From Candidatus Thiodiazotropha sp. (ex Codakia rugifera) (GTDB taxonomy: Bacteria; Pseudomonadota; Gammaproteobacteria; Chromatiales; Chromatiaceae), in NCBI GenBank assembly GCA_025656675.1, contig JAHXHN010000002.1, forward strand, positions 475,302-539,301: DNA of 64,000 bases, written 5' to 3'. Positions 23,334 to 35,858 of this stretch are shown piece after piece. The translations under genes and the position numbers were made by a program. The first letter of the stretch is position 1; every line of letters starts with the position of its first letter. The notes beneath the pieces are model-generated. The model saw nothing but the letters and a program-made list of their open reading frames with translations. It ran no database searches and had not been told where the DNA came from.

Positions 23334-25358
23334 TTAAAAACCCCCAATAATTGGTTTTCTTGAAGGTCGTTGTTTCTGTTGTGCCACTATCTCATTGAGT
23401 CGTTGATTGACAGAATCGTATAGAGTTCGGAGTTGATTATTTTCAGGATGATCATCCAATACCCGTGCAATATCAGCCGCTAATTGATTTCCATGGTTGG
23501 ATTGTGCTTTAAGGTTTCCAGTACTAACTCGCCACTGAGAGTTTCTTTCTTGTAGTTGATTGATTTGTAAGTGAAGTTTTTCTAAACGCTGTCGCTCTAT
23601 TTTTTTTTGCGCAAACGTTACTTTCGCTGTTGTAATATCATCAGCCGACGTTTGTAATTGTTCATGTATTGGATCAACGCTCCGTAAATCCTTTAGTAGC
23701 GATTCTGCCAATGAAAAATCGTTGTTTGAGATGGCGGTCTGAATTTGTGCGATCAAGGCTTCAGCGATTTGTGATAAGCCGTGCTCAGCTGTTTGATTTT
23801 TTGATTCTAACAATAGGACTTTTTTGAAGTAATTCAGTGCACTGTCATTTTGTGGTTTTAAGTATTGACCTGCAATCATAGATGAAGTGGCGGCTTGTAG
23901 GTATTGGTTGATTTTCCTCTGTTTAGCGGCATCTGCCGCTGCCAGGTTTCGCGCTTCAATACGTTGGCGGGATTTCGCAATTTGATCTCTCAATTGTTTA
24001 AGCTGTTCCTCGTCCGGCCATAAGTTGTTTAGAGCATCCAATTGTTGGTTGGCTTCATCCAAAGATTGAGTCAGTATGAGTTGTTCCACTTCTAACACAA
24101 GTCGCTGCAGAATGCTTTGTTGGCCGTTATTCGCGATGATGTTACCGCTGTCTTGATCCAAAACTTGCCGGTATAGGGCTAGGGCGTTGCTATCCTCCGG
24201 TGCTACCAGTTTATCTTGTTCAAAAAGTTGATTTGCTCGTGTCAAGGTTTCCTGCCAGGGAGGTGTCTCTAGATCTTGAGAAGTAATTACTGAATTGGGA
24301 TTGTTACCAGTTTGGCTTGTTGGAATTTTATCGCTATCGGTATTAGGGGGTGAGCTAGTTGCATACCAGGTACCTATACCTAGTGCAGCAATAAGACTAA
24401 CGGCCGCTGTTCCGGCAATCAACCAGGTTTTGCTGGATTTTTTCTTTGTGTTTCTAGCTTGTCCCAGTTCTCTAGTAAAATTCGTGCTGCTGTTTATTTC
24501 CGGGACATTTTCCGGCCATAGTGATATTAGTGGAGCTGTTAATTTTTCTGGCAGGTCTATTATACTTCGTAGCTCATTTCCTAAGGCTTCCGCGCTGGTT
24601 ATACGATCATCTGGGTCCTTGGCCAACAGCTGATCGATAAGATATTGCAGTCGGGAGGTTGCTTTTGGTAAATGTGGTATGTCGGCACTGATGTGTTGCA
24701 TTGCTACGTTCATCATGCTTTCGCCGCGATAGGGATGGTAACCCGTCAGTAATTCAAACAAGGTAATACCAAGGGAGTATATGTCGGCACGACCATCCAA
24801 GGTTCTGCCGGAAATCTGTTCCGGGCTCATGTAAGCCGGCGTGCCGAGCATGGCGCCCGTCACTGTCATATGCGTAAGGGACTCGGCTTGTCGAGCGATA
24901 CCAAAATCGGTCAATACGGCATGCTTTGGATTACGATACAAAATGTTGGCGGGTTTGATATCTCGGTGTATAAATCCACGGTCGTGTGCTACTTGCAGGG
25001 CCTGCGTTATCTGCAAAATGACTTGCAGCAAATCCTTGAGCGTGAGTTGTTCAGCCTGAGATCGTAAATCACCGCCGCTTAGGTATTCCATGGCCATGAA
25101 ATACTGGCTATTGAATTCCCCAATATCGTAGACAGGAATAATATGGGGGTGATTGAGTTGAGCAATGATGCGACCTTCCCGTTTAAAACGTGCACCGAAT
25201 TTTGGGTCTGAGGTGAGTATCCCCTTGACCAGCTTAAGTGCCACGCGACGATTAAGGTTTTGCTGAACGGCAAGATAAACATCAGCACTGCCTCCGGACC
25301 CAACCTTGCGGATAATTGTGTAACCGGGAATTGGAGTACCAGGATTTAGAGTGGCCAT
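23334..25358 (-). CDS. Transmembrane Ser/Thr protein kinase (PknB/PknT type)
   Basis: With ATG at 25358 the protein has about 674 residues; an upstream in-frame start at 25457 seems too early. The kinase domain (~10-280) shows the G-loop KVGSGGSADVYLA, ATP-binding Lys in VALKLVKG, HRDIKPAN and DFGIAR, with GTPAYMSPEQ in the P+1 loop: a complete active Hanks kinase. A single membrane helix (~307-328) precedes a long glutamine-rich, alpha-helical extracytoplasmic part with TPR-like repeats (ALNYFKKVLLLESKNQTAEHGL). This is the layout of a sensor kinase facing the periplasm. It lies 3 kb from a kinase-linked ECF sigma gene. Confidence 0.92.
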   Translation of the reverse strand: MATLNPGTPIPGYTIIRKVGSGGSADVYLAVQQNLNRRVALKLVKGILTSDPKFGARFKREGRIIAQLNHPHIIPVYDIGEFNSQYFMAMEYLSGGDLRSQAEQLTLKDLLQVILQITQALQVAHDRGFIHRDIKPANILYRNPKHAVLTDFGIARQAESLTHMTVTGAMLGTPAYMSPEQISGRTLDGRADIYSLGITLFELLTGYHPYRGESMMNVAMQHISADIPHLPKATSRLQYLIDQLLAKDPDDRITSAEALGNELRSIIDLPEKLTAPLISLWPENVPEINSSTNFTRELGQARNTKKKSSKTWLIAGTAAVSLIAALGIGTWYATSSPPNTDSDKIPTSQTGNNPNSVITSQDLETPPWQETLTRANQLFEQDKLVAPEDSNALALYRQVLDQDSGNIIANNGQQSILQRLVLEVEQLILTQSLDEANQQLDALNNLWPDEEQLKQLRDQIAKSRQRIEARNLAAADAAKQRKINQYLQAATSSMIAGQYLKPQNDSALNYFKKVLLLESKNQTAEHGLSQIAEALIAQIQTAISNNDFSLAESLLKDLRSVDPIHEQLQTSADDITTAKVTFAQKKIERQRLEKLHLQINQLQERNSQWRVSTGNLKAQSNHGNQLAADIARVLDDHPENNQLRTLYDSVNQRLNEIVAQQKQRPSRKPIIGGF

Positions 25359-25492
25359 GATAAGATGTGAGAATTCTCTAAACGGGTCAGTGTACGATTC
25401 TAAGCATTGTATATTTTGTGTTCCAGACTGACCACAATCAATACCGTAAATTGTCACTGTAGAATCGTAGAAGAGGATTATTAGGGGGTTTT

Positions 25493-26251
25493 ATGAAAGA
25501 ACGCTTGCTACTGGTGGGTGTCATTTGGTTAATATCGACTGCGCTATGCGCGCAGGAGAATCAGAAAGTGGGCTACATGGGCAGTGTCGCCTTTGGTTAT
25601 ACTAATTTGGACTTTGATGCCAAGCTCGATTCCACACCAAGTTTTCAGTCCATAGTGGTGACTGGTGGCTTGATGTTTGAAAGCTATTATGTGAATTTGA
25701 GTTACGCTGATTCAGTTGGTAATACATCAATCTCAGAAGAAGAAGATGTTGGTGATGCAGGGCGCACCGATTTGGACTTGACGTTTGGATATCGAGTGAG
25801 TGATGCTTTGAGCGTTTTTCTGGGTTACAAGGACAGTGAAACTGATATCGATTTTAAATTGCGTGATGATGATGTGGTACGTAAGGAATATTATCGCAAG
25901 GACGGTTGGTTTGCTGGTGCCACGTACAATATAGGTTTGAAGTCTGCTGGTACCTTAAGTCTTAGTCTTGGCTATGTGGATTTGAAAACGGATGATTTAT
26001 TCAAAGCTGATGTGGAAGATGATGATGAACCCGATGTAAATGATTTCGATGACCTCACCGGTCGCCACAAGGGCGATGCGGATGGTTGGAGTTATGGCAT
26101 CAACTGGCTGGTGCCGGTAAACAATAATTTGTTTATCAATACCACTTATAAAATTAATGACTATGATGAGGAGATTAAGTTTGAGGGTAAGAAGTATTCT
26201 GCCGATCAAAAACTCACTTTTTTTAATGTAGGTGTAATTTATCTGTTTTGA
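25493..26251 (+). CDS. Predicted outer-membrane beta-barrel protein
   Basis: The 252-residue precursor has a signal peptide ending near STALCAQE. Alternating hydrophobic/aromatic strands run throughout (GSVAFGYTNLDFD, YYVNLSYADS, DLDLTFGYRVSDALSVFLGYKDS, SLSLGYVDLKTDD), and the chain ends in FNVGVIYLF, the terminal-Phe signal for outer-membrane assembly. Acidic loops (DVEDDDEPDVNDFDD) suggest cation or calcium contact. It is divergent from the transmembrane kinase, sharing a 134-base promoter region; it may be a target or sensor partner. It lacks the local sigma-factor motif. Confidence 0.8.
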   Translation: MKERLLLVGVIWLISTALCAQENQKVGYMGSVAFGYTNLDFDAKLDSTPSFQSIVVTGGLMFESYYVNLSYADSVGNTSISEEEDVGDAGRTDLDLTFGYRVSDALSVFLGYKDSETDIDFKLRDDDVVRKEYYRKDGWFAGATYNIGLKSAGTLSLSLGYVDLKTDDLFKADVEDDDEPDVNDFDDLTGRHKGDADGWSYGINWLVPVNNNLFINTTYKINDYDEEIKFEGKKYSADQKLTFFNVGVIYLF

Positions 26252-26379: not shown

Positions 26380-26967
26380 CTATTTCTTGCTAACTGGATT
26401 CCCCATCTCTTTTGCAAGCCACGCCTTGGCGATTTTAATATCTTCAAACAAAGTGGTTTTTGACACGCATAATACTTCCCCTGTCTCATCATAGGTCAAA
26501 CCGCCAAAAAACATCAGTTCAATGGCTTTAGCGCCACGTTCATCAAATTCAGCCAGTCTTTGCAGGGCTTCGTCCAGCTCGATGACAGCATCTTGGTTGT
26601 TGTCACTGACATACACCGAATCGTCCAGTGTGATTTGTTTCAAGCTACCGCCACGTTTGCCTCTTTTTTTAGAGCGGGCGTGGTCCACCAAAATTCGGCG
26701 CATGGTTTGAGCGGCCAGCGCAAAAAAGTGTACTCGATCCTGGGCTTGTGTTTCTTTGCCCGCCAAACGCAAATAGGCTTCATTGACCAAGGCCGTAGCC
26801 TGCAAGGTGTGATTATAACGCTCCTTGCGCATGTATGACGCCGCCAGGCGGCGCAATTCGTCGTAAACTTTTGATAGCAACTGGTCATGTGCATGTTGGT
26901 CACCATTTCTGACTGCGGCGAGCAATTGTGTCACTTCATTTTCAGAATCAAACATGGTTTTTCCCAT
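26380..26967 (-). CDS. ECF-type RNA polymerase sigma factor of the Ser/Thr-kinase-linked group
   Basis: The 195-residue protein has sigma region 2 (RLAASYMRKERYNHTLQATALVNEAYLRLAG...FFALAAQTMRRILVDHARSKKRGKRGG) and region 4 with GLTYDETGEVLCVSKTTLFEDIKIAKAWL. The TLQATALVNEAYLRL sequence replaces the acidic core-binding motif of normal ECFs and is typical of the kinase-associated groups (ECF43 and relatives). In Vibrio EcfP/PknT, kinase phosphorylation of a region-2 Thr supplies the missing negative charge; Thr54 or Thr58 here are candidates by position. No anti-sigma gene is nearby, but two kinases are. ATG 26955 is an alternative start. Confidence 0.88.
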   Translation of the reverse strand: MGKTMFDSENEVTQLLAAVRNGDQHAHDQLLSKVYDELRRLAASYMRKERYNHTLQATALVNEAYLRLAGKETQAQDRVHFFALAAQTMRRILVDHARSKKRGKRGGSLKQITLDDSVYVSDNNQDAVIELDEALQRLAEFDERGAKAIELMFFGGLTYDETGEVLCVSKTTLFEDIKIAKAWLAKEMGNPVSKK

Positions 26968-27017
26968 ACAGGGTATCAGTTGGGTGAATGGTACTTGAGC
27001 TATACCACCCGGTAAAT

Positions 27018-27053
27018 ATTTTTACCGAACGATCAGGTTGTGAATAGCGCTTT
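27018..27053 (+). promoter_or_regulatory. Shared bipartite promoter motif, copy 1
   Basis: ATTTTTACCGAACGA (27018-27032), 15 bases, then CGCTTT (27048-27053), about 60 bases before the ATG at 27116. GAAC is the usual ECF -35 core. Copies with identical spacing precede both lipoprotein genes (29839-29868 and 29997-30032). Confidence 0.75.
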
Positions 27054-27115
27054 ATCCAGTAGCAGGCAAATTAACCTGACTTTAACCGTTACAACCATTG
27101 AAGAAGGAAAGTACC

Positions 27116-28045
27116 ATGAATAAAGTGATCAGTTTTCTATCTATCACAACCATATCTATTTCCACTGCCGCCGTGAATCCAGCGGTCCATGCACAGGGTA
27201 GTGTACAATTTAATCTGGAGTCCCGTGGACCTGGCGCTGGCTATAACCATACCATGATGGACCGACGTGTGGCTCAACCCAAGAGTATTTTAAAAGGCAG
27301 TGTGGCCAACCGGGCTATACACAATGAACAGCGTTTTTTACGTCAGCTGGGCCCGAATGTTCGCGACGACATGCGCCATCGCGGCGATGTGGTCAGACAC
27401 ACCCGACAGAATGGGAAAATCAAAGCGACCCTGAGTCAGAAAGCTCGAATACCGAGGACCCGCTACGATGTGCGTAAGTTGTCTCCTGAAGTGCGTCAAA
27501 ATCTTAATAAACGCGGTAATGTGGCCAGACAGGCGCGGGTAAATAGCCATATGAGCGGTGCAGCCAGTTCCAAAACGCAAACACCAAGAGTTCGATTTGA
27601 AACGAGACTTCGCGTCCGTGGCGCCAGTTACAGTCCTAGCTCTCCTCGTAACAGAACCACCAAACCAAAAGGTATCCTCAAAAACAAAAACACCCTAAAT
27701 ACCGTGAAAAGAGGTAGGAAGTTACGTACCTTGGGTAAGGTCGCCGCGGGCGGTGTGATGGTCGCGGGTGCTACAGTAGTGGCTGAAACAGCCTTGGGTG
27801 TCGACATCCCCGATGCGATCGACGCTGTTGAGTGGACCTACGGTACTTTTAAGGATCCACGTAAGGCACCTCGGCGATTTAACAAATTGGGTAGAGATTC
27901 CTTGCGTACACTGGACAAGGCGGGTCGTTCCCTGACCAATCCGAACAAAATGGCTAAAAATCTGGAAAATGGCGCTAAAAAAGCCGCAAAATCGATCAGT
28001 AAAGCTGGCTGTTCCGTTGGTAAGTTGTTTGGTGCCAAATGCTAA
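27116..28045 (+). CDS. Exported, highly basic protein of unknown function
   Basis: The ATG at 27116 has AAGGAA seven bases upstream and gives a 309-residue precursor (a TTG 18 bases earlier is less likely). A signal peptide ends near NPAVHAQG. The mature chain is rich in Arg, Lys and Asn with loosely repeated units (NRAIHNEQRFLRQLGPNVRDDMRHRGDVVRHTRQNGKI and later RKLSPEVRQNLNKRGNVARQARVNSHM), a glycine/alanine hydrophobic stretch (KVAAGGVMVAGATVVAETALG) and a lysine-rich end with two Cys. It could bind nucleic acid, lipid A or peptidoglycan. The sigma-type motif upstream puts it in the island's regulon. Family unknown. Confidence 0.75.
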   Translation: MNKVISFLSITTISISTAAVNPAVHAQGSVQFNLESRGPGAGYNHTMMDRRVAQPKSILKGSVANRAIHNEQRFLRQLGPNVRDDMRHRGDVVRHTRQNGKIKATLSQKARIPRTRYDVRKLSPEVRQNLNKRGNVARQARVNSHMSGAASSKTQTPRVRFETRLRVRGASYSPSSPRNRTTKPKGILKNKNTLNTVKRGRKLRTLGKVAAGGVMVAGATVVAETALGVDIPDAIDAVEWTYGTFKDPRKAPRRFNKLGRDSLRTLDKAGRSLTNPNKMAKNLENGAKKAAKSISKAGCSVGKLFGAKC

Positions 28046-28077
28046 TCACGCCCTTATTAGATCCTTTCGAAACCACT

Positions 28078-28103
28078 AAAATCCGCGCTATGCGCGGGTT
28101 TTT
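28078..28103. terminator. Bidirectional intrinsic terminator
   Basis: CCGCGC (28083-28088), loop TAT, GCGCGG (28092-28097) flanked by AAAA and TTTTT. It lies between the convergent basic-protein and kinase genes; the kinase stop lies in its T tract. Confidence 0.9.
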
Positions 28104-29166
28104 ATGTTTGAATCAATGCTCGAATCTGCATGCTCAATTCCGTGCAGGACTGCAAGCGCTTGTGTTGATCCTTCACCAGCAACTGATCAACAATGGTTTG
28201 GACCGGTGCCAGTTTGTAACCATCGCAACTGGTTGTGGGTAGCGGCGGGGGTTCTTCTGTAAGCACTTTTTTTGCTACCGCTAAGCGGTCTAGCGCAATA
28301 AAAGGCTTGTTGGTTGTAAATAATTCAAACATCAGTATTCCCAGAGACCATAGATCGGTTCGGTAATCTACGCCCCGGCCGTGCCACTGTTCTGGTGACA
28401 TATAGCTTGGTGTTCCTAAAATTTGACCAGTGGCTGTCAGCTTTGTATCGGCAAACTTGGCAATACCAAAGTCAATCAACTTAATTTGCTCGTGTTGATC
28501 GAGTAATACATTGTTGGACTTGATATCCCTATGCGCCAGACCTTGAGCATGTGCCTGGGCCAGTACATCGCTGAGATTGAGGATGATATTCAGGCATTGG
28601 GAAAAGGGCAGGGGTCCTTGATTGAGGTATTCATCTAGGCCATTGCCATCAATAAATTCCATGGCAATGGCGGCATATTCTTCAGTGTTAAAGGACTCAA
28701 ACAGGTGACACAAAGCAGGGTGGTCTAGGCTGGTCAAAACCTTGGCTTCCAGCATAAAGCGACGTTGTGCATCTTCAGCAGCTACGGTAAAGCGAGGAAG
28801 AAGCTTGAGTGCAACTTTACCGTATTGCGGATGCTCGGCAAGGTAAACCACACCCATTCCACCGCGACCTAATTCTTCGAGTATCTGGTATTCGCCTACT
28901 GTTTGCGGGCGTTGTAACTCTTTGGCTGCCTGCAGGACTGGCGTGACAATGTCCTGATTCCCTTGCTCCAGCTGGTCGTGGGATTCCAACAAGGCTTCTA
29001 TTTCCCGGCGTAATTCGTTGTTTTCCTCACACACCATGTCAAGATAATCGCGCCGGTGACTGGGGTTTTTATCCACCAGGTGGCGAAAAATACTTTGTAT
29101 TTGTTGCCAGCGATGTTTGTCCACGAAAGCTTTTCCATGTGCCTTTTGTAAACTGACAAGCCACAT
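28102..29166 (-). CDS. Cytoplasmic Ser/Thr protein kinase with ECF-linked N-terminal extension
   Basis: ATG at 29166 gives about 354 residues; an in-frame GTG at 29199 is an alternative. The first ~90 residues (HRWQQIQSIFRHLVDKNPSHRRDYLDMVCEENNELRREIEALLESHD) are the helical extension seen on kinases that partner ECF sigma factors. The kinase domain has GRGGMGVVYLAE, the Lys in KVALKLL, AHRDIKSNNVLL, DFGIAKF and GTPSYMSPEQ, so it should be active. The chain ends with the kinase fold and has no membrane helix, unlike its neighbour at 23.3 kb. It is the best candidate to phosphorylate the local sigma factor. Confidence 0.9.
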   Translation of the reverse strand: MWLVSLQKAHGKAFVDKHRWQQIQSIFRHLVDKNPSHRRDYLDMVCEENNELRREIEALLESHDQLEQGNQDIVTPVLQAAKELQRPQTVGEYQILEELGRGGMGVVYLAEHPQYGKVALKLLPRFTVAAEDAQRRFMLEAKVLTSLDHPALCHLFESFNTEEYAAIAMEFIDGNGLDEYLNQGPLPFSQCLNIILNLSDVLAQAHAQGLAHRDIKSNNVLLDQHEQIKLIDFGIAKFADTKLTATGQILGTPSYMSPEQWHGRGVDYRTDLWSLGILMFELFTTNKPFIALDRLAVAKKVLTEEPPPLPTTSCDGYKLAPVQTIVDQLLVKDQHKRLQSCTELSMQIRALIQT

Positions 29167-29273
29167 CTTGATCAAGGGTATTCTTAATGCCCTGAACACG
29201 ACATATTAGGTTGCCGGGTTGATTACGGTTAAATTCCAATGTCGATAGTTTACAGGATCTATTCGGATAGGGT

Positions 29274-29298
29274 GAAAAAAGGGCGGCACAAGGCCGCC
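29274..29298 (-). terminator. Intrinsic terminator of the minus-strand lipoprotein gene
   Basis: On the minus strand GGCGGC, loop CTTGT, GCCGCC is followed by CTTTTTT (plus-strand A tract 29275-29280). It lies ~43 bases after the stop of the gene ending at 29341. Confidence 0.85.
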
Positions 29299-29340
29299 AA
29301 TTGGAGAAAAAAGTGTTTTTTTAGGATTAGTAGGCCCTTC

Positions 29341-29778
29341 TCATCCCCAGGTCAGTCGACGCAATTGAATAACCAGGTTACGTTTGTCGTTGCTATGCCA
29401 TTCACCGTTGTGAATGGTAGTGAATTCATAGGTCATGCCTTTGGATTGGTACAGATTGGGGCCAATTTTGGTGTAGATAACAGGTTTGCCATTATTGGGG
29501 GTCACCATGATGCCGTCGTATGTGTGGCGGATGCGGTTGATGCGACTACCGTGGCCCAACAGCTGCCAGTTTCCGGTTAGGTCGATTTCTTCAAAATTAT
29601 TGCCGTAATTACCAGTTTCAACTTCTTGGGAGCGGCTGTTGTAACGATCATTGATGTCTTGGATTGTTGCCCAGATATCTGGATTATTGAGGTTACGCTC
29701 CAAGTTGGTGGCGATGGAGGAGCATCCGGTAGAAGCCGTTAACAACAGTATCAGATATACCAAGTTAATTTTGTTCAT
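29341..29778 (-). CDS. Lipoprotein, paralogue of the lipoprotein at 30.1 kb
   Basis: The 145-residue precursor has a lipobox LTASTGCSS (Cys ~19). The C-terminal ~80 residues (DLTGNWQLLGHGSRINRIRHTYDGIMVTP...GPNLYQ...WHSNDKRNLVIQLRRL) align along their length with the protein encoded at 30096-30563 (NLSGSW...FQKTYTGYHVIP...GENLYQ...WRSNDRRNLEIEL). It should sit in the envelope. The same bipartite promoter motif lies 60 bases upstream. Function unknown; likely a small beta-sandwich induced by the island's sigma factor. Confidence 0.8.
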   Translation of the reverse strand: MNKINLVYLILLLTASTGCSSIATNLERNLNNPDIWATIQDINDRYNSRSQEVETGNYGNNFEEIDLTGNWQLLGHGSRINRIRHTYDGIMVTPNNGKPVIYTKIGPNLYQSKGMTYEFTTIHNGEWHSNDKRNLVIQLRRLTWG

Positions 29779-29838
29779 GTGTCTTCTCCAGTAGAGTTTA
29801 TGTGTGATTACCCGCTATTTCGAGCGGTTCTACTAGTT

Positions 29839-29868
29839 AAAGCGAGCTTCGTACCGCATTCGTTCAGA
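29839..29868 (-). promoter_or_regulatory. Shared bipartite promoter motif, copy 2
   Basis: On the minus strand CTGAACGA ends at 29860, then 15 bases (29859-29845), then CGCTTT (29844-29839), 60 bases before the ATG at 29778. The element is preceded by a T tract, exactly as in the other two copies. Confidence 0.75.
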
Positions 29869-29996
29869 AAAAATAAATAATAATTACCTTATTAAAATAA
29901 TAAGTAACAAGAAGAAATTTTATCCGCAATTCGTGAAATTCGAAGAGTCCAACTAAGTTGGATAGGTTGTGGCAGGTGCGAATCGAATATTTCTAT

Positions 29997-30032
29997 ATTT
30001 TTTCCGAACGATTTTGATAGAGGTGACGCTTT
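29997..30032 (+). promoter_or_regulatory. Shared bipartite promoter motif, copy 3
   Basis: TTTTTTCCGAACGA ends at 30011, followed by 15 bases and CGCTTT (30027-30032), 63 bases before the ATG at 30096. Spacing and both boxes equal those of copies 1 and 2. Confidence 0.75.
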
Positions 30033-30095
30033 CATAAGTGAGAGCAATACATTCATTATAAATGACATTGTAAATACTCAAATTGGAGAACAGTC

Positions 30096-30563
30096 ATGAA
30101 ATCTATCAAATACATTGCCGTCACCACCCTGTTACTTGTCTCTTTCTCAGCCTGTGCAGATCTTGAAAAAGGCCGTGCTTTTCAAGCCTTCTTTAGTGCG
30201 ATTGCCAAAGTGGCCGATCAACAACAAGCCCAATCTGGTGGTTATCAGCAAGGTTTTTACGAAGGCGAGTACTACGACAATGGTTATCAGGAGGTGGGAT
30301 ACAATAAGCAAGGTCCTGTTATTTTTAATCTAAGTGGTAGCTGGGGTATGCGTGGTGGCAAAAAGAACCGCTTCCAAAAAACCTACACCGGCTACCATGT
30401 AATTCCGGTGGGGCGTGGTAAAGGCGTACACTACAACGAAGTTGGTGAAAATCTTTACCAAGATGCCAATAGCTCAGGCACTTATGAGGTTATTGATCGT
30501 GACTACATGATTTGGCGCAGCAACGACAGACGAAACCTGGAGATTGAGTTGTTTCGTCAGTAG
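30096..30563 (+). CDS. Lipoprotein, paralogue of the lipoprotein at 29.3 kb
   Basis: The 155-residue precursor starts MKSIKYIAVTTLLLVSFSACADLEKG, a lipobox with Cys ~20. A Gln/Gly/Tyr-rich linker (QQQAQSGGYQQGFYEGEYYDNGYQEVGY) leads to the conserved ~75-residue domain shared with the neighbour (NLSGSWGMRGGKKNRFQKTYTGYHVIP...WRSNDRRNLEIELFRQ). A GGAGAA ribosome site precedes the ATG. The two genes are divergent, each with its own copy of the bipartite promoter motif. Function unknown. Confidence 0.8.
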   Translation: MKSIKYIAVTTLLLVSFSACADLEKGRAFQAFFSAIAKVADQQQAQSGGYQQGFYEGEYYDNGYQEVGYNKQGPVIFNLSGSWGMRGGKKNRFQKTYTGYHVIPVGRGKGVHYNEVGENLYQDANSSGTYEVIDRDYMIWRSNDRRNLEIELFRQ

Positions 30564-32960: not shown

Positions 32961-33438
32961 GATTTAGTAGGTTCGCTATATTGTCTATTGGGGGAAAATC
33001 CACAGTAAATTACTTGGTTATTCCTATTGAACACCATGTGCAGCAGATGATCAAGCCCTGTTGTGCAATATTTAATATTTAAATCATCCCTTATAGGAAG
33101 TAGGGTATCACATCGAACATTAGTATTTAATTATAAGTCTTATATCTTTGTATTTTAAGGATATTAAAGTGCTGTAATGGCTGTTTTTTTGCTGATTTCA
33201 CCTGTCTGCATATCCCATATGGGATAGTCCGTTCTATCTCTCTACACCCCATCGGAAGGATATAGGTCTGCATTAGGAAACTCTAAACTTTCGCTCCAGT
33301 AGAAACAGGATATTTGCCTGTATAAGGTTTAGATTGCGGGTCGGACGACCATATTCAAAAGCCTTGGTCTTTAGCCAAGTGATATCAGAATATGTGTCAG
33401 CTGATGACCTAGATAAACGACCATTGGGAGAAAGAGTG
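32961..33438. promoter_or_regulatory. Divergent dsr promoter region with two related palindromes
   Basis: This AT-rich 478-base region serves dsrA (+) and the four-gene operon (-). A perfect 16-base palindrome TATCCCATATGGGATA lies at 33211-33226, and a related imperfect copy CATCCCTTATAGGAAG at 33085-33100 (about 12 of 16 bases equal). Both have the form of an operator for a dimeric regulator. No FNR box is present. An in-frame upstream extension of dsrA lies here but is not coding. Confidence 0.6.
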
Positions 33439-34683
33439 ATGGCAAAACAGATGCATGATACCCCCATGCTTGATCAGCTGGAGAGTGGCCCATGGCCCTC
33501 GTTCGTCACCGGCCTCAAGCGCCTCGCCAAAGATAACGACATGATGGTTGACCTACTGGGTCAGCTCGAGACTTCCTACGAAACCCGTAAAGGCTACTGG
33601 AAAGGTGGTACTGTCGGTGTTATCGGCTATGGCGGCGGTATCATCCCCCGTTTTACCGAACTCAAAGGTGATGATGGCAAGGCCTTGTTTCCTGCAGCCG
33701 CCGAATTTCATACGTTGCGTATCATGCCGCCTCCAGGCATGCACTACGACACCAACACTATCCGCAAGATGTGTGATATCTGGGAAAAATACGGTTCAGG
33801 CCTGATTGCATTCCATGGCCAGTCCGGCGACATCATGTTCCAGGGCTGTTCAACAGATAACGTCCAGCCTGCTTTTGATGAGCTGAATGAAATGGGCTTT
33901 GATCTTGGTGGTGCTGGTCCGGCTGTACGCACCGGCATGTCATGCGTAGGCGCTGCCCGTTGCGAGAACTCATGCGTTGACGAAGGTCGTACCATGCGTA
34001 TGCTGGTCAATAATGCCCTGGATGATATGCATCGTCCTGCGTTGCCTTATAAATTCAAATATAAAGTTTCCGGTTGCCCCAACGATTGCATGAACTCTGT
34101 GCAACGTGCTGACCTGGCTACCATCGGTACTTGGCGCGACGACATGAAGGTTGACCAGGAAGAGGTCAAGAAGTTTGTTGCAACACGTGGTCGCAAGTAC
34201 ACCATCGACAATGTCATCACCCGTTGTCCGACTAAGGCTCTGTCTCTGAATGACGACGATACCCTGTCAGTGGACAACCCATCATGTGTGCGTTGCATGC
34301 ACTGTATCAATGTGATGAACAAGGCACTTTCTCCTGGTGACGACAAAGGTGTCACGCTGCTGTGTGGTGGTAAGCGCACATTGAAGATCGGTGACCTGCT
34401 GGGCACAGTGATCGTTCCCTTTATGAAATTAGAGACAGATGAGGATTTTGAGACGCTGGAAGAGCTGGCTACAGAAATCCTCGATTTCTTTGCAGAGAAT
34501 GCCCTTGAGCACGAACGTACCGGAGAGATGGTAGAACGAATCGGTCTGGTCAACTTCCTGGAAGGTGTTGGCTTAGAGATCGACCCTAACATGATCGAAC
34601 GTCCGCGCATGAATCCTTACGTCCGAATGGATGGTTGGGATGAAGAAGCAGCCAAATGGGCTGAGCACAAGACAGCTCAATAA
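33439..34683 (+). CDS. dsrA: Reverse-type dissimilatory sulfite reductase, alpha subunit
   Basis: ATG 33439 with GGGAGA upstream gives 414 residues (MAKQMHDTPMLDQLESGPWPSF), the usual DsrA length; the frame extends upstream without coding character. Sirohaem/[4Fe-4S] ligands appear in MSCVGAARCENSCVDEG and KVSGCPNDCMNS, and a ferredoxin-type insert in CVRCMHCINVMNKA. With DsrB it forms the cytoplasmic alpha2beta2 enzyme that oxidises DsrC-bound sulfur to sulfite. It heads the complete dsr operon. Confidence 0.98.
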   Translation: MAKQMHDTPMLDQLESGPWPSFVTGLKRLAKDNDMMVDLLGQLETSYETRKGYWKGGTVGVIGYGGGIIPRFTELKGDDGKALFPAAAEFHTLRIMPPPGMHYDTNTIRKMCDIWEKYGSGLIAFHGQSGDIMFQGCSTDNVQPAFDELNEMGFDLGGAGPAVRTGMSCVGAARCENSCVDEGRTMRMLVNNALDDMHRPALPYKFKYKVSGCPNDCMNSVQRADLATIGTWRDDMKVDQEEVKKFVATRGRKYTIDNVITRCPTKALSLNDDDTLSVDNPSCVRCMHCINVMNKALSPGDDKGVTLLCGGKRTLKIGDLLGTVIVPFMKLETDEDFETLEELATEILDFFAENALEHERTGEMVERIGLVNFLEGVGLEIDPNMIERPRMNPYVRMDGWDEEAAKWAEHKTAQ

Positions 34684-34716
34684 ACCAATGTTCTCTGCTG
34701 ATTAACAGCAGGATGT

Positions 34717-34750
34717 AAGGGGGGCACCGGGATAGCCCGGCTGCCCCTTA
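34717..34750 (+). promoter_or_regulatory. Hairpin in the dsrA-dsrB spacer
   Basis: AAGGGGGGCACCGGG pairs with GCCCGGCTGCCCCTT around ATA, an imperfect but GC-rich stem, 33 bases after the dsrA stop and 38 before dsrB. With no T tract it is more likely an RNA-processing or stability element than a terminator. Confidence 0.65.
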
Positions 34751-34787
34751 AAAACGAATCAATTACCCTATTTTTTTGGAGGTAGGT

Positions 34788-35858
34788 ATGTCGGAACCTC
34801 GTATGCAGATTGAGAGTGGTGTCCCAGAGATGGAGGCCTACTTACACCCCGTCCTGAAGAAGAACTATGGCCAATGGGCTTGGCACGAACGTCCTCGTCC
34901 CGGTGTTCTGCATCATGTTGCTAAAAGTGGTGATAGCATCTGGACAGTGCGTGCAGGCACTCAACGTCAAATGGATCTCTATACCATCCGTAAGCTGATG
35001 GATATTGCTGACGAATTTGCCGAGGGCTATGTCCGCTTCACCATTCGTTCCAATATCGAGTACATGGTGAGTGAAGAGTCTAAAGTACAACCTTTGATCG
35101 ACAAGCTGGGGTCTGAAGGCTTCCCGATCGGTGGTACCGGCAACTCTGTATCCATGATCTCTCACACCCAGGGTTGGTTACACTGCGATATCCCGGGTAC
35201 CGATGCATCCGGCGCGGTCAAAGCGTTGATGGATGATCTCTATGACGAGTTCGTCAAAGAGGAGATGCCTAACCGCGTGCGTATCACCACCTCCTGCTGT
35301 CAGATCAACTGTGGCGGTCAAGGTGATATTGCCATCAATATCCAGCACACCAAGCCGCCGAAGATCGATCACGATCAGGTCGCCAATGTCTGCGAACGTC
35401 CTTCCGTGGTGGCACGCTGCCCGGTTGCGGCTATCCGCCCGGCAATGGTCAATGGTAAGCCTTCCCTGGAAGTCGATGAGAAAAAATGTATCTGTTGCGG
35501 TGCCTGTTTTCCACCATGTCCACCGATGCAGATCAACGATCCCGAACACTCCAAGTTTGCAATCTGGGTGGGAGGCAAAAACTCCAACGCCCGTTCCAAG
35601 CCAACGCTGCATAAATTGGTAGCGGCCGGTGTGCCAAACAACCCACCCCGCTGGCCTGAAGTCTCTGCAGTCGTGAAGCAGATTCTGGCTGCCTATAAGG
35701 CAGATGCGAGGGACTGGGAGCGTATCGGCGAATGGGCTGATCGAATTGGATGGCCAAAGTTTTTCGAGAAGACCGGTTTGCCGTTTACCAAATATCACAT
35801 CGATAACTGGCGTGGTAGTCGTAACAACCTGAATACCTCTGCGCATATCCGTTTCTAA
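34788..35858 (+). CDS. dsrB: Reverse-type dissimilatory sulfite reductase, beta subunit
   Basis: The ATG at 34788 follows GGAGGT closely and gives 356 residues. Catalytic sirohaem-cluster Cys motifs are TTSCCQINCGGQGDIAI and CERPSVVARCPVAAI, and a ferredoxin motif KKCICCGACFPPCPPM lies in the middle. It pairs with DsrA. Sequence features are intact. Confidence 0.98.
   Translation: MSEPRMQIESGVPEMEAYLHPVLKKNYGQWAWHERPRPGVLHHVAKSGDSIWTVRAGTQRQMDLYTIRKLMDIADEFAEGYVRFTIRSNIEYMVSEESKVQPLIDKLGSEGFPIGGTGNSVSMISHTQGWLHCDIPGTDASGAVKALMDDLYDEFVKEEMPNRVRITTSCCQINCGGQGDIAINIQHTKPPKIDHDQVANVCERPSVVARCPVAAIRPAMVNGKPSLEVDEKKCICCGACFPPCPPMQINDPEHSKFAIWVGGKNSNARSKPTLHKLVAAGVPNNPPRWPEVSAVVKQILAAYKADARDWERIGEWADRIGWPKFFEKTGLPFTKYHIDNWRGSRNNLNTSAHIRF

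Follow-up and report, generated by a model that had tools for sequence, protein, structure and literature searches.

A conserved bipartite upstream element and a probable kinase-linked ECF sigma regulon in a lucinid clam symbiont

Introduction

Certain extracytoplasmic function (ECF) sigma factors are described as being controlled by Ser/Thr protein kinases. In EcfP of Vibrio parahaemolyticus and EcfK of Xanthomonas citri, both placed in ECF43, the phosphorylated residue is the third position of the sigma-2.2 motif (PMC13147305, PMC8999054). Here, we analyze a stretch of 64,000 nucleotides (the window) from Candidatus Thiodiazotropha sp. (ex Codakia rugifera), in which a gene for a sigma factor of this kind lies close to three exported-protein genes that share a bipartite upstream element. 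We consider it probable that the ECF sigma factor encoded at 26380-26967 uses the element as its promoter and, once activated by a kinase, drives the three genes.

No promoter sequence for any kinase-activated ECF sigma factor was found in the literature searched; one may be given by Iyer et al. 2020, the main primary paper on EcfP. EcfP resembles the sigma factor studied here in lacking the acidic DAED motif, in carrying a Thr at the phosphorylated place, and in having a Ser/Thr kinase gene nearby (PMC8999054, PMC13147305). EcfK is likewise a kinase-linked ECF sigma factor with a Thr in the motif, which reads QATE compared to QATA here (PMC13147305). The accessible parts of these two papers, and those of PMC8103513 and PMC6653060, state no promoter sequence for ECF43. 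Two papers on lucinid symbionts (PMC6712303, PMC11168628) do not mention this sigma factor in the portions available.

Results and Discussion

Identification of the shared element

Exact copies of GAACGA-N15-CGCTTT are present at 27027-27053 (+), 29839-29865 (-), and 30006-30032 (+), each with a T-rich stretch followed by CC or CT directly on its 5' side. The annotated elements extend over 27018-27053 (+) for the gene of a basic exported protein, 29839-29873 (-) for lipA, and 29997-30032 (+) for lipB. The ATG follows the end of CGCTTT after 62, 60, and 63 bases respectively. An earlier note on this DNA had described an identical motif at the three genes (a T tract, C(C/T)GAACGA, 15 bases, and CGCTTT, around 60 bases before the ATG) and is borne out in each of these particulars. 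GAAC is a common -35 core of ECF promoters.

The whole 4.65-Mb genome contains three exact copies in total, all in this cluster and upstream of these exported-protein genes, and no exact copy of a reversed-pattern control. Five further genome matches appear when one mismatch is allowed (reversed control, eight); they were rejected as regulon members, as every one falls within an open reading frame (ORF). At up to two mismatches, the window holds eight matches against 3.9 expected, a number attained by 2 of 100 shuffles. The five inexact matches among them each lie within an ORF, so the signal resides in the exact copies. Since the motif was picked from these very sequences, counts of this type are partly circular and independent genomes provide the better test.

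Conservation in related genomes

The sigma factor is encoded by five of the 22 genomes in our genus set, namely the source genome and four relatives. In the relatives, the block contains identical genes in identical order, and each genome retains the three sites at exact spacing. The promoter of the basic gene reads GAACGA-N15-CGCTCT in all four, and that of lipB GAACGA-N15-CGCTTT in all four. For lipA, the aligned first box is GAACGA in two relatives and GAACAG in the other two, and CGCTTT is kept in 4/4. The pattern GAAC-N17-CGCT(T/C)T fits all 15 sites (three promoters, five genomes), and the spacing holds in all five genomes that encode this sigma. Every site combines a GAAC-like candidate -35 box with a second box some 17 bases away at constant spacing, as in an ECF-type promoter. 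Beyond the boxes, with the G of GAAC numbered 0, the 15 sites share an invariant T at both -6 and -5, an invariant C at -2, and an invariant T at +33. The A and G preceding this last T are each found at 14 sites.

In an ungapped comparison of the five genomes, invariant core columns numbered 11/12 for the basic gene, 12/12 for lipB, and 10/12 for lipA; this level was equalled by 6, 1, and 4 of 124 windows of the same shape. With only one such window, lipB conservation is the most distinct from its surroundings, and the basic-gene region is well conserved throughout. The spacers have diverged among the relatives while the boxes were kept.

These features bear on the nature of the element. A role as operator, in this case for a DNA-binding activator or repressor overlying housekeeping promoters, is conceivable for any element conserved upstream of genes, but two asymmetric boxes, the diverged sequence that separates them by exactly 15 bases, a near-constant distance to the ATG, the GAAC core, and the conserved AGT after the second box are all promoter-like. 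The sigma factor is also the only regulator matched among the eight neighboring proteins searched. We regard an operator as improbable and favor a promoter.

Specificity of the element

A matrix built solely from the 12 sites found in the four relatives was applied to the window. It scored the three window sites at 47.6, 36.3, and 36.3 bits, with the next best position at 1.9 bits; across 50 shuffled windows, the mean maximum was 7.7 bits and the top maximum 21.6. When the training set covered two promoter families, the window site of the third family ranked third, after those of the two training families, with scores of 28.2 (basic), 17.2 (lipB), and 22.5 bits (lipA) against at most 5.8 elsewhere.

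Pattern scans of the five genomes point in the same direction. The pattern TTNNCCGAACGA-N15-CGCTYT gave 13 matches at up to one mismatch, all 13 inside the cluster. At two mismatches there were 20 more, comprising the two GAACAG sites and 18 off-cluster matches, compared to 22 in all for the reversed control. We inspected 13 of these 18, plus L027 and L048 from the looser scan described below, using mechanical ORFs of at least 60 amino acids; the other five consist of three without a locus and two (L127, L132) with the same letters as the inspected L121 and L135. Twelve of the 13 lie within mechanical ORFs, as do L027 and L048, and the exception (L134) has no ORF in the next 300 bases. L124 was considered as a further regulon member, being in a small ORF some 250 bases before an ORF of 416 amino acids; it was not counted because its first box is CAACGA. 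No additional convincing site was seen in the five genomes in scans allowing up to two mismatches.

The looser pattern GAACGA-N15-CGCTYT matches the five genomes that encode the sigma 15 times (reversed control, five); 13 of these matches fall in the cluster and two within ORFs. In the 17 genomes of the genus without the local sigma, the same pattern reaches background only, with 12 matches against 14 for its reversed control. These numbers are relevant to whether another cellular ECF sigma, for example an RpoE-like one, reads the element and the linkage to the local gene is incidental. The GAAC core is common enough among ECF promoters to suit such a reading, and an expressed RpoE is reported in a 2019 paper on the Ctena symbiont (PMC6712303). 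However, sites of an RpoE-like regulon should be present at many genes, whereas near-perfect ones are confined to the cluster in five genomes, and the 17 genomes lacking the sigma also lack the targets. We therefore give little credence to a different sigma factor and consider the local one the better candidate.

Co-inheritance of the cassette

Orthologues of the sigma factor, the basic protein, lipA/lipB, and kinase 1, as well as the C-terminal part of kinase 2, occur in the same five of 22 genus genomes. Among 369 sampled genomes of the class, relatives of lipA/lipB were found in the source genome only, the four relatives being outside that sample. What can be read directly from the DNA is the conserved element, its confinement to three genes within the searches made, and the joint inheritance of the parts. 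From linkage and co-distribution, we infer that the element is recognized by the local sigma. The earlier note's proposal of a regulon of this sigma gains support from sequence tests (asymmetric boxes, fixed spacing, conservation, and co-occurrence in 5/22 genomes).

Several observations weigh against this reading. The basic-gene promoter is less distinct from its flanks, given the six of 124 windows that are as conserved. Two of the three promoters, those of the paralogues lipA and lipB, may share descent. Without lipB training, the lipB site scores 17.2 bits, below the 21.6-bit top shuffle maximum of the relatives-only matrix. Autoregulation is common among ECF sigmas and is not seen here: the sigma and kinase genes have no copy of the element, and no further site near them scored over 2 bits when the window was scanned, so feedback via this promoter is not apparent. 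Finally, no copy of the element was seen at 20 distant sigma loci, where a 42-position matrix built from all 15 sites gave no score beyond that of shuffles. Outside ORFs, GAAC-N17-CGYT is not enriched in the distant loci either (one match at N17 against zero to four at other spacings); counted likewise, the four relatives yielded nine of 12 known sites at N17, the three missed being covered by mechanical ORFs. As a result, the link between sigma and promoter rests on one genus.

The sigma factor

The sigma gene (26380-26967, -) encodes a protein matching TIGR02999 at 205.9 bits (cut-off 126) and PF07638 at 194 bits, which places it in the ECF fold family (sigma-2, sigma-4). Within its own genome, it matches only itself at an E-value of 0.001. 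There was no match to the Protein Data Bank (PDB) by phmmer at 0.01, and a match to an OTU protease was under the Pfam cut-off and disregarded. In all five orthologues, the acidic DAED of sigma-2.2 is replaced by QATA, with Thr58 (codon 26794-26796) at the third position. A Thr occupies this position in 21 of 22 aligned sigmas (five orthologues, 17 distant), with L105s having Ala.

On these features, the protein can be classified as a sigma of the Ser/Thr-kinase-linked TIGR02999 type. Motif and context, rather than ECF group models, also suggest an ECF43-type sigma: the fold, the uncharged motif with Thr, the nearby Hanks-type kinase, and the lack of any anti-sigma family among the eight neighboring proteins searched. 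Activation by a kinase is likely because Thr58 falls at the EcfP/EcfK phosphosite, an equivalence drawn through the published motif description, as the alignment covers the 22 sigmas and not EcfP or EcfK. In addition, most of the 22 aligned sigmas (L095-L108) have a Thr in a TL motif of the linker (ITLDD here; VTLHE etc. elsewhere). This might be the counterpart of the EcfK linker phosphosite T106, by a comparison made without EcfK in the alignment.

The two kinases

Kinase 1 (28102-29199, -) and kinase 2 (23334-25457, -) are Ser/Thr protein kinases matching PF00069, with HRD and DFG intact and orthologues in the same five genomes. Kinase 1 shows no clear membrane span, and its true start may be internal to the ORF. 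Kinase 2 has one hydrophobic span at residues 345-365 or so and a C-terminal part of 340 residues, and is co-inherited with the block. Near full-length relatives of kinase 1 (73-75% identity) are confined to the five sigma-bearing genomes of the 22; its other matches reach at most 38%, chiefly in the kinase domain. The C-terminal part of kinase 2 has 54-60% matches in these five genomes only and 20-29% partial matches elsewhere.

The N-terminal domain of kinase 1 was found in nine of 13 kinases from distant sigma loci (E < 0.01 in a 14-sequence search); in kinase 2, the domain was not recognizable (E 0.66). Since the domain is common to kinases beside related sigmas, kinase 1 appears by descent the likelier partner of the sigma.

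Probable target proteins and neighboring genes

The basic exported protein (27116-28045, +), a probable sigma target, has 309 amino acids, an isoelectric point of 11.6, and 63 Lys/Arg against 18 Asp/Glu. Its structural model (mean predicted local distance difference test score 41.5) is too poor for use. The version in genome G019 (L023:8449-9525, -) is longer and carries a repeat some 30-50 residues long, resembling an internal duplication. LipA (29341-29778, -) is a lipoprotein-like target of 145 amino acids, and lipB (30096-30563, +) encodes an exported paralogue of 155 amino acids with a small beta domain toward the C-terminal end. The earlier note called both lipoproteins. This fits lipA, in which a lipobox-like Cys is present in 5/5 genomes; in lipB, a lipobox-like Cys occurs in the source genome only and the four relatives have His at that place, so "lipoprotein" is not a conserved lipB trait.

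None of the three targets has a Pfam match at 0.001 or an NCBIfam match, and raising the E-value up to 1 gives only weak, chance-like Pfam matches. LipA and lipB have no match among PDB sequences. AlphaFold2 predicts a small all-beta domain in lipB from about residue 80 (block means 62-83), with the remainder unreliable. A Foldseek search returned nothing significant; its best match, potempin E (E 0.36), and also PliC (E 1.3), are at most a lead.

LipA and lipB are paralogous (32% identity, E 2e-17) with divergent starts, so their promoters may share ancestry. The shared sequence might accordingly be a leftover of duplication and not a working element, and the T-rich upstream stretches do agree at 14 of 20 positions. 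Outside the boxes, however, the three window promoters agree at only 36% and the spacers at 4-5 of 15 positions, compared to 13-14 of 14 for the boxes with CC or CT, and the boxes are retained in five diverged genomes. We consider such a relic very improbable and a functional promoter much the better explanation.

Terminator-like hairpins lie 3' of the basic gene (28078-28102, +) and 3' of lipA (29282-29298, -), between lipA and kinase 1. By count they are weak, with seven in the region against 5.0 expected in shuffles, and they fit separate transcripts weakly. Co-transcription of kinase 1 with lipA was considered and rejected given the hairpin between the two genes, and no feedback loop is claimed.

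Between the sigma and kinase 2 genes, 25493-26251 (+) encodes an outer-membrane beta-barrel-like protein, with weak OMP_b-brl/Porin_4 matches under Pfam cut-offs; it is 72-75% identical in the block of the relatives and has no copy of the element. Two ORFs adjoining the block (33334-35858, +) are 94-95% conserved in the relatives. By eye, they look like dissimilatory sulfite reductase subunits, as expected in a sulfur-oxidizing symbiont.

Proposed mechanism

We propose that a signal would act through a kinase to yield phosphorylated sigma and, in turn, three single-gene transcripts. GAAC(GA), following T-rich sequence and CC, would serve as the -35 box and CGCTTT as the -10 box, with transcription probably starting near the conserved AGT, 5-7 bases 3' of the -10 box. 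The sigma is probably idle until phosphorylated by a kinase of the cassette (kinase 1, possibly aided by the receptor-like kinase 2), because the acidic motif of sigma-2.2 that holds RNA polymerase is replaced and Thr58 lies there. Active sigma would then switch on three genes with separate promoters, one encoding the basic exported protein and the others the two exported paralogues with a beta domain. Activation by phosphorylation, the choice of kinase, the signal, and the roles of the targets are all inferred from sequence. A further reading is speculative and, on balance, unlikely: in lucinid-clam symbionts, the co-inherited cassette would be closed, both kinases would converge on a single sigma activated by phosphorylation, and the entire regulon would consist of three exported proteins restricted to the lineage. 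Those with a beta domain might then work where symbiont and host meet, for example by inhibiting host lysozyme or proteases, an idea taken from the non-significant potempin E and PliC matches.

The analysis extends the earlier note in that the sigma is kinase-linked, two kinase genes are in the block, and two of the three targets are paralogous. A small signaling cassette and its likely promoter are thus readable from sequence in some bacterial clam symbionts. The element marks three genes without a family match as one response. With three apparent targets, this conserved promoter would also offer a clean readout of whether phosphorylation activates the sigma, if used as a reporter.

Comparison with known systems

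The cassette differs from the closest described systems in its likely targets and kinases. For EcfP, control of polymyxin resistance is reported, whereas the likely targets here are three exported proteins without a family match. Compared to EcfP/PknT by published description, kinase 1 is without a clear membrane span and the block contains a second kinase. EcfK has a type VI secretion system under its control, and its partner PknS is a receptor kinase that spans the membrane (PMC13147305). Type VI secretion was considered as a target by analogy and rejected, with no secretion gene among the eight neighbors searched.

The 17 distant loci with TIGR02999-type sigma/kinase pairs are alike in their sigmas (39-53% identity), in a kinase gene at 15 of 17 (none was detected in L100 and L107), and in the N-terminal domain of kinase 1 in nine of 13 kinases. 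They differ in having no homologues of lipA, lipB, or the basic protein at any of the 17, and in lacking this promoter at the 20 scanned. The sigma factor is of an already known kind, and its probable regulon is unusually closed and lineage-restricted.

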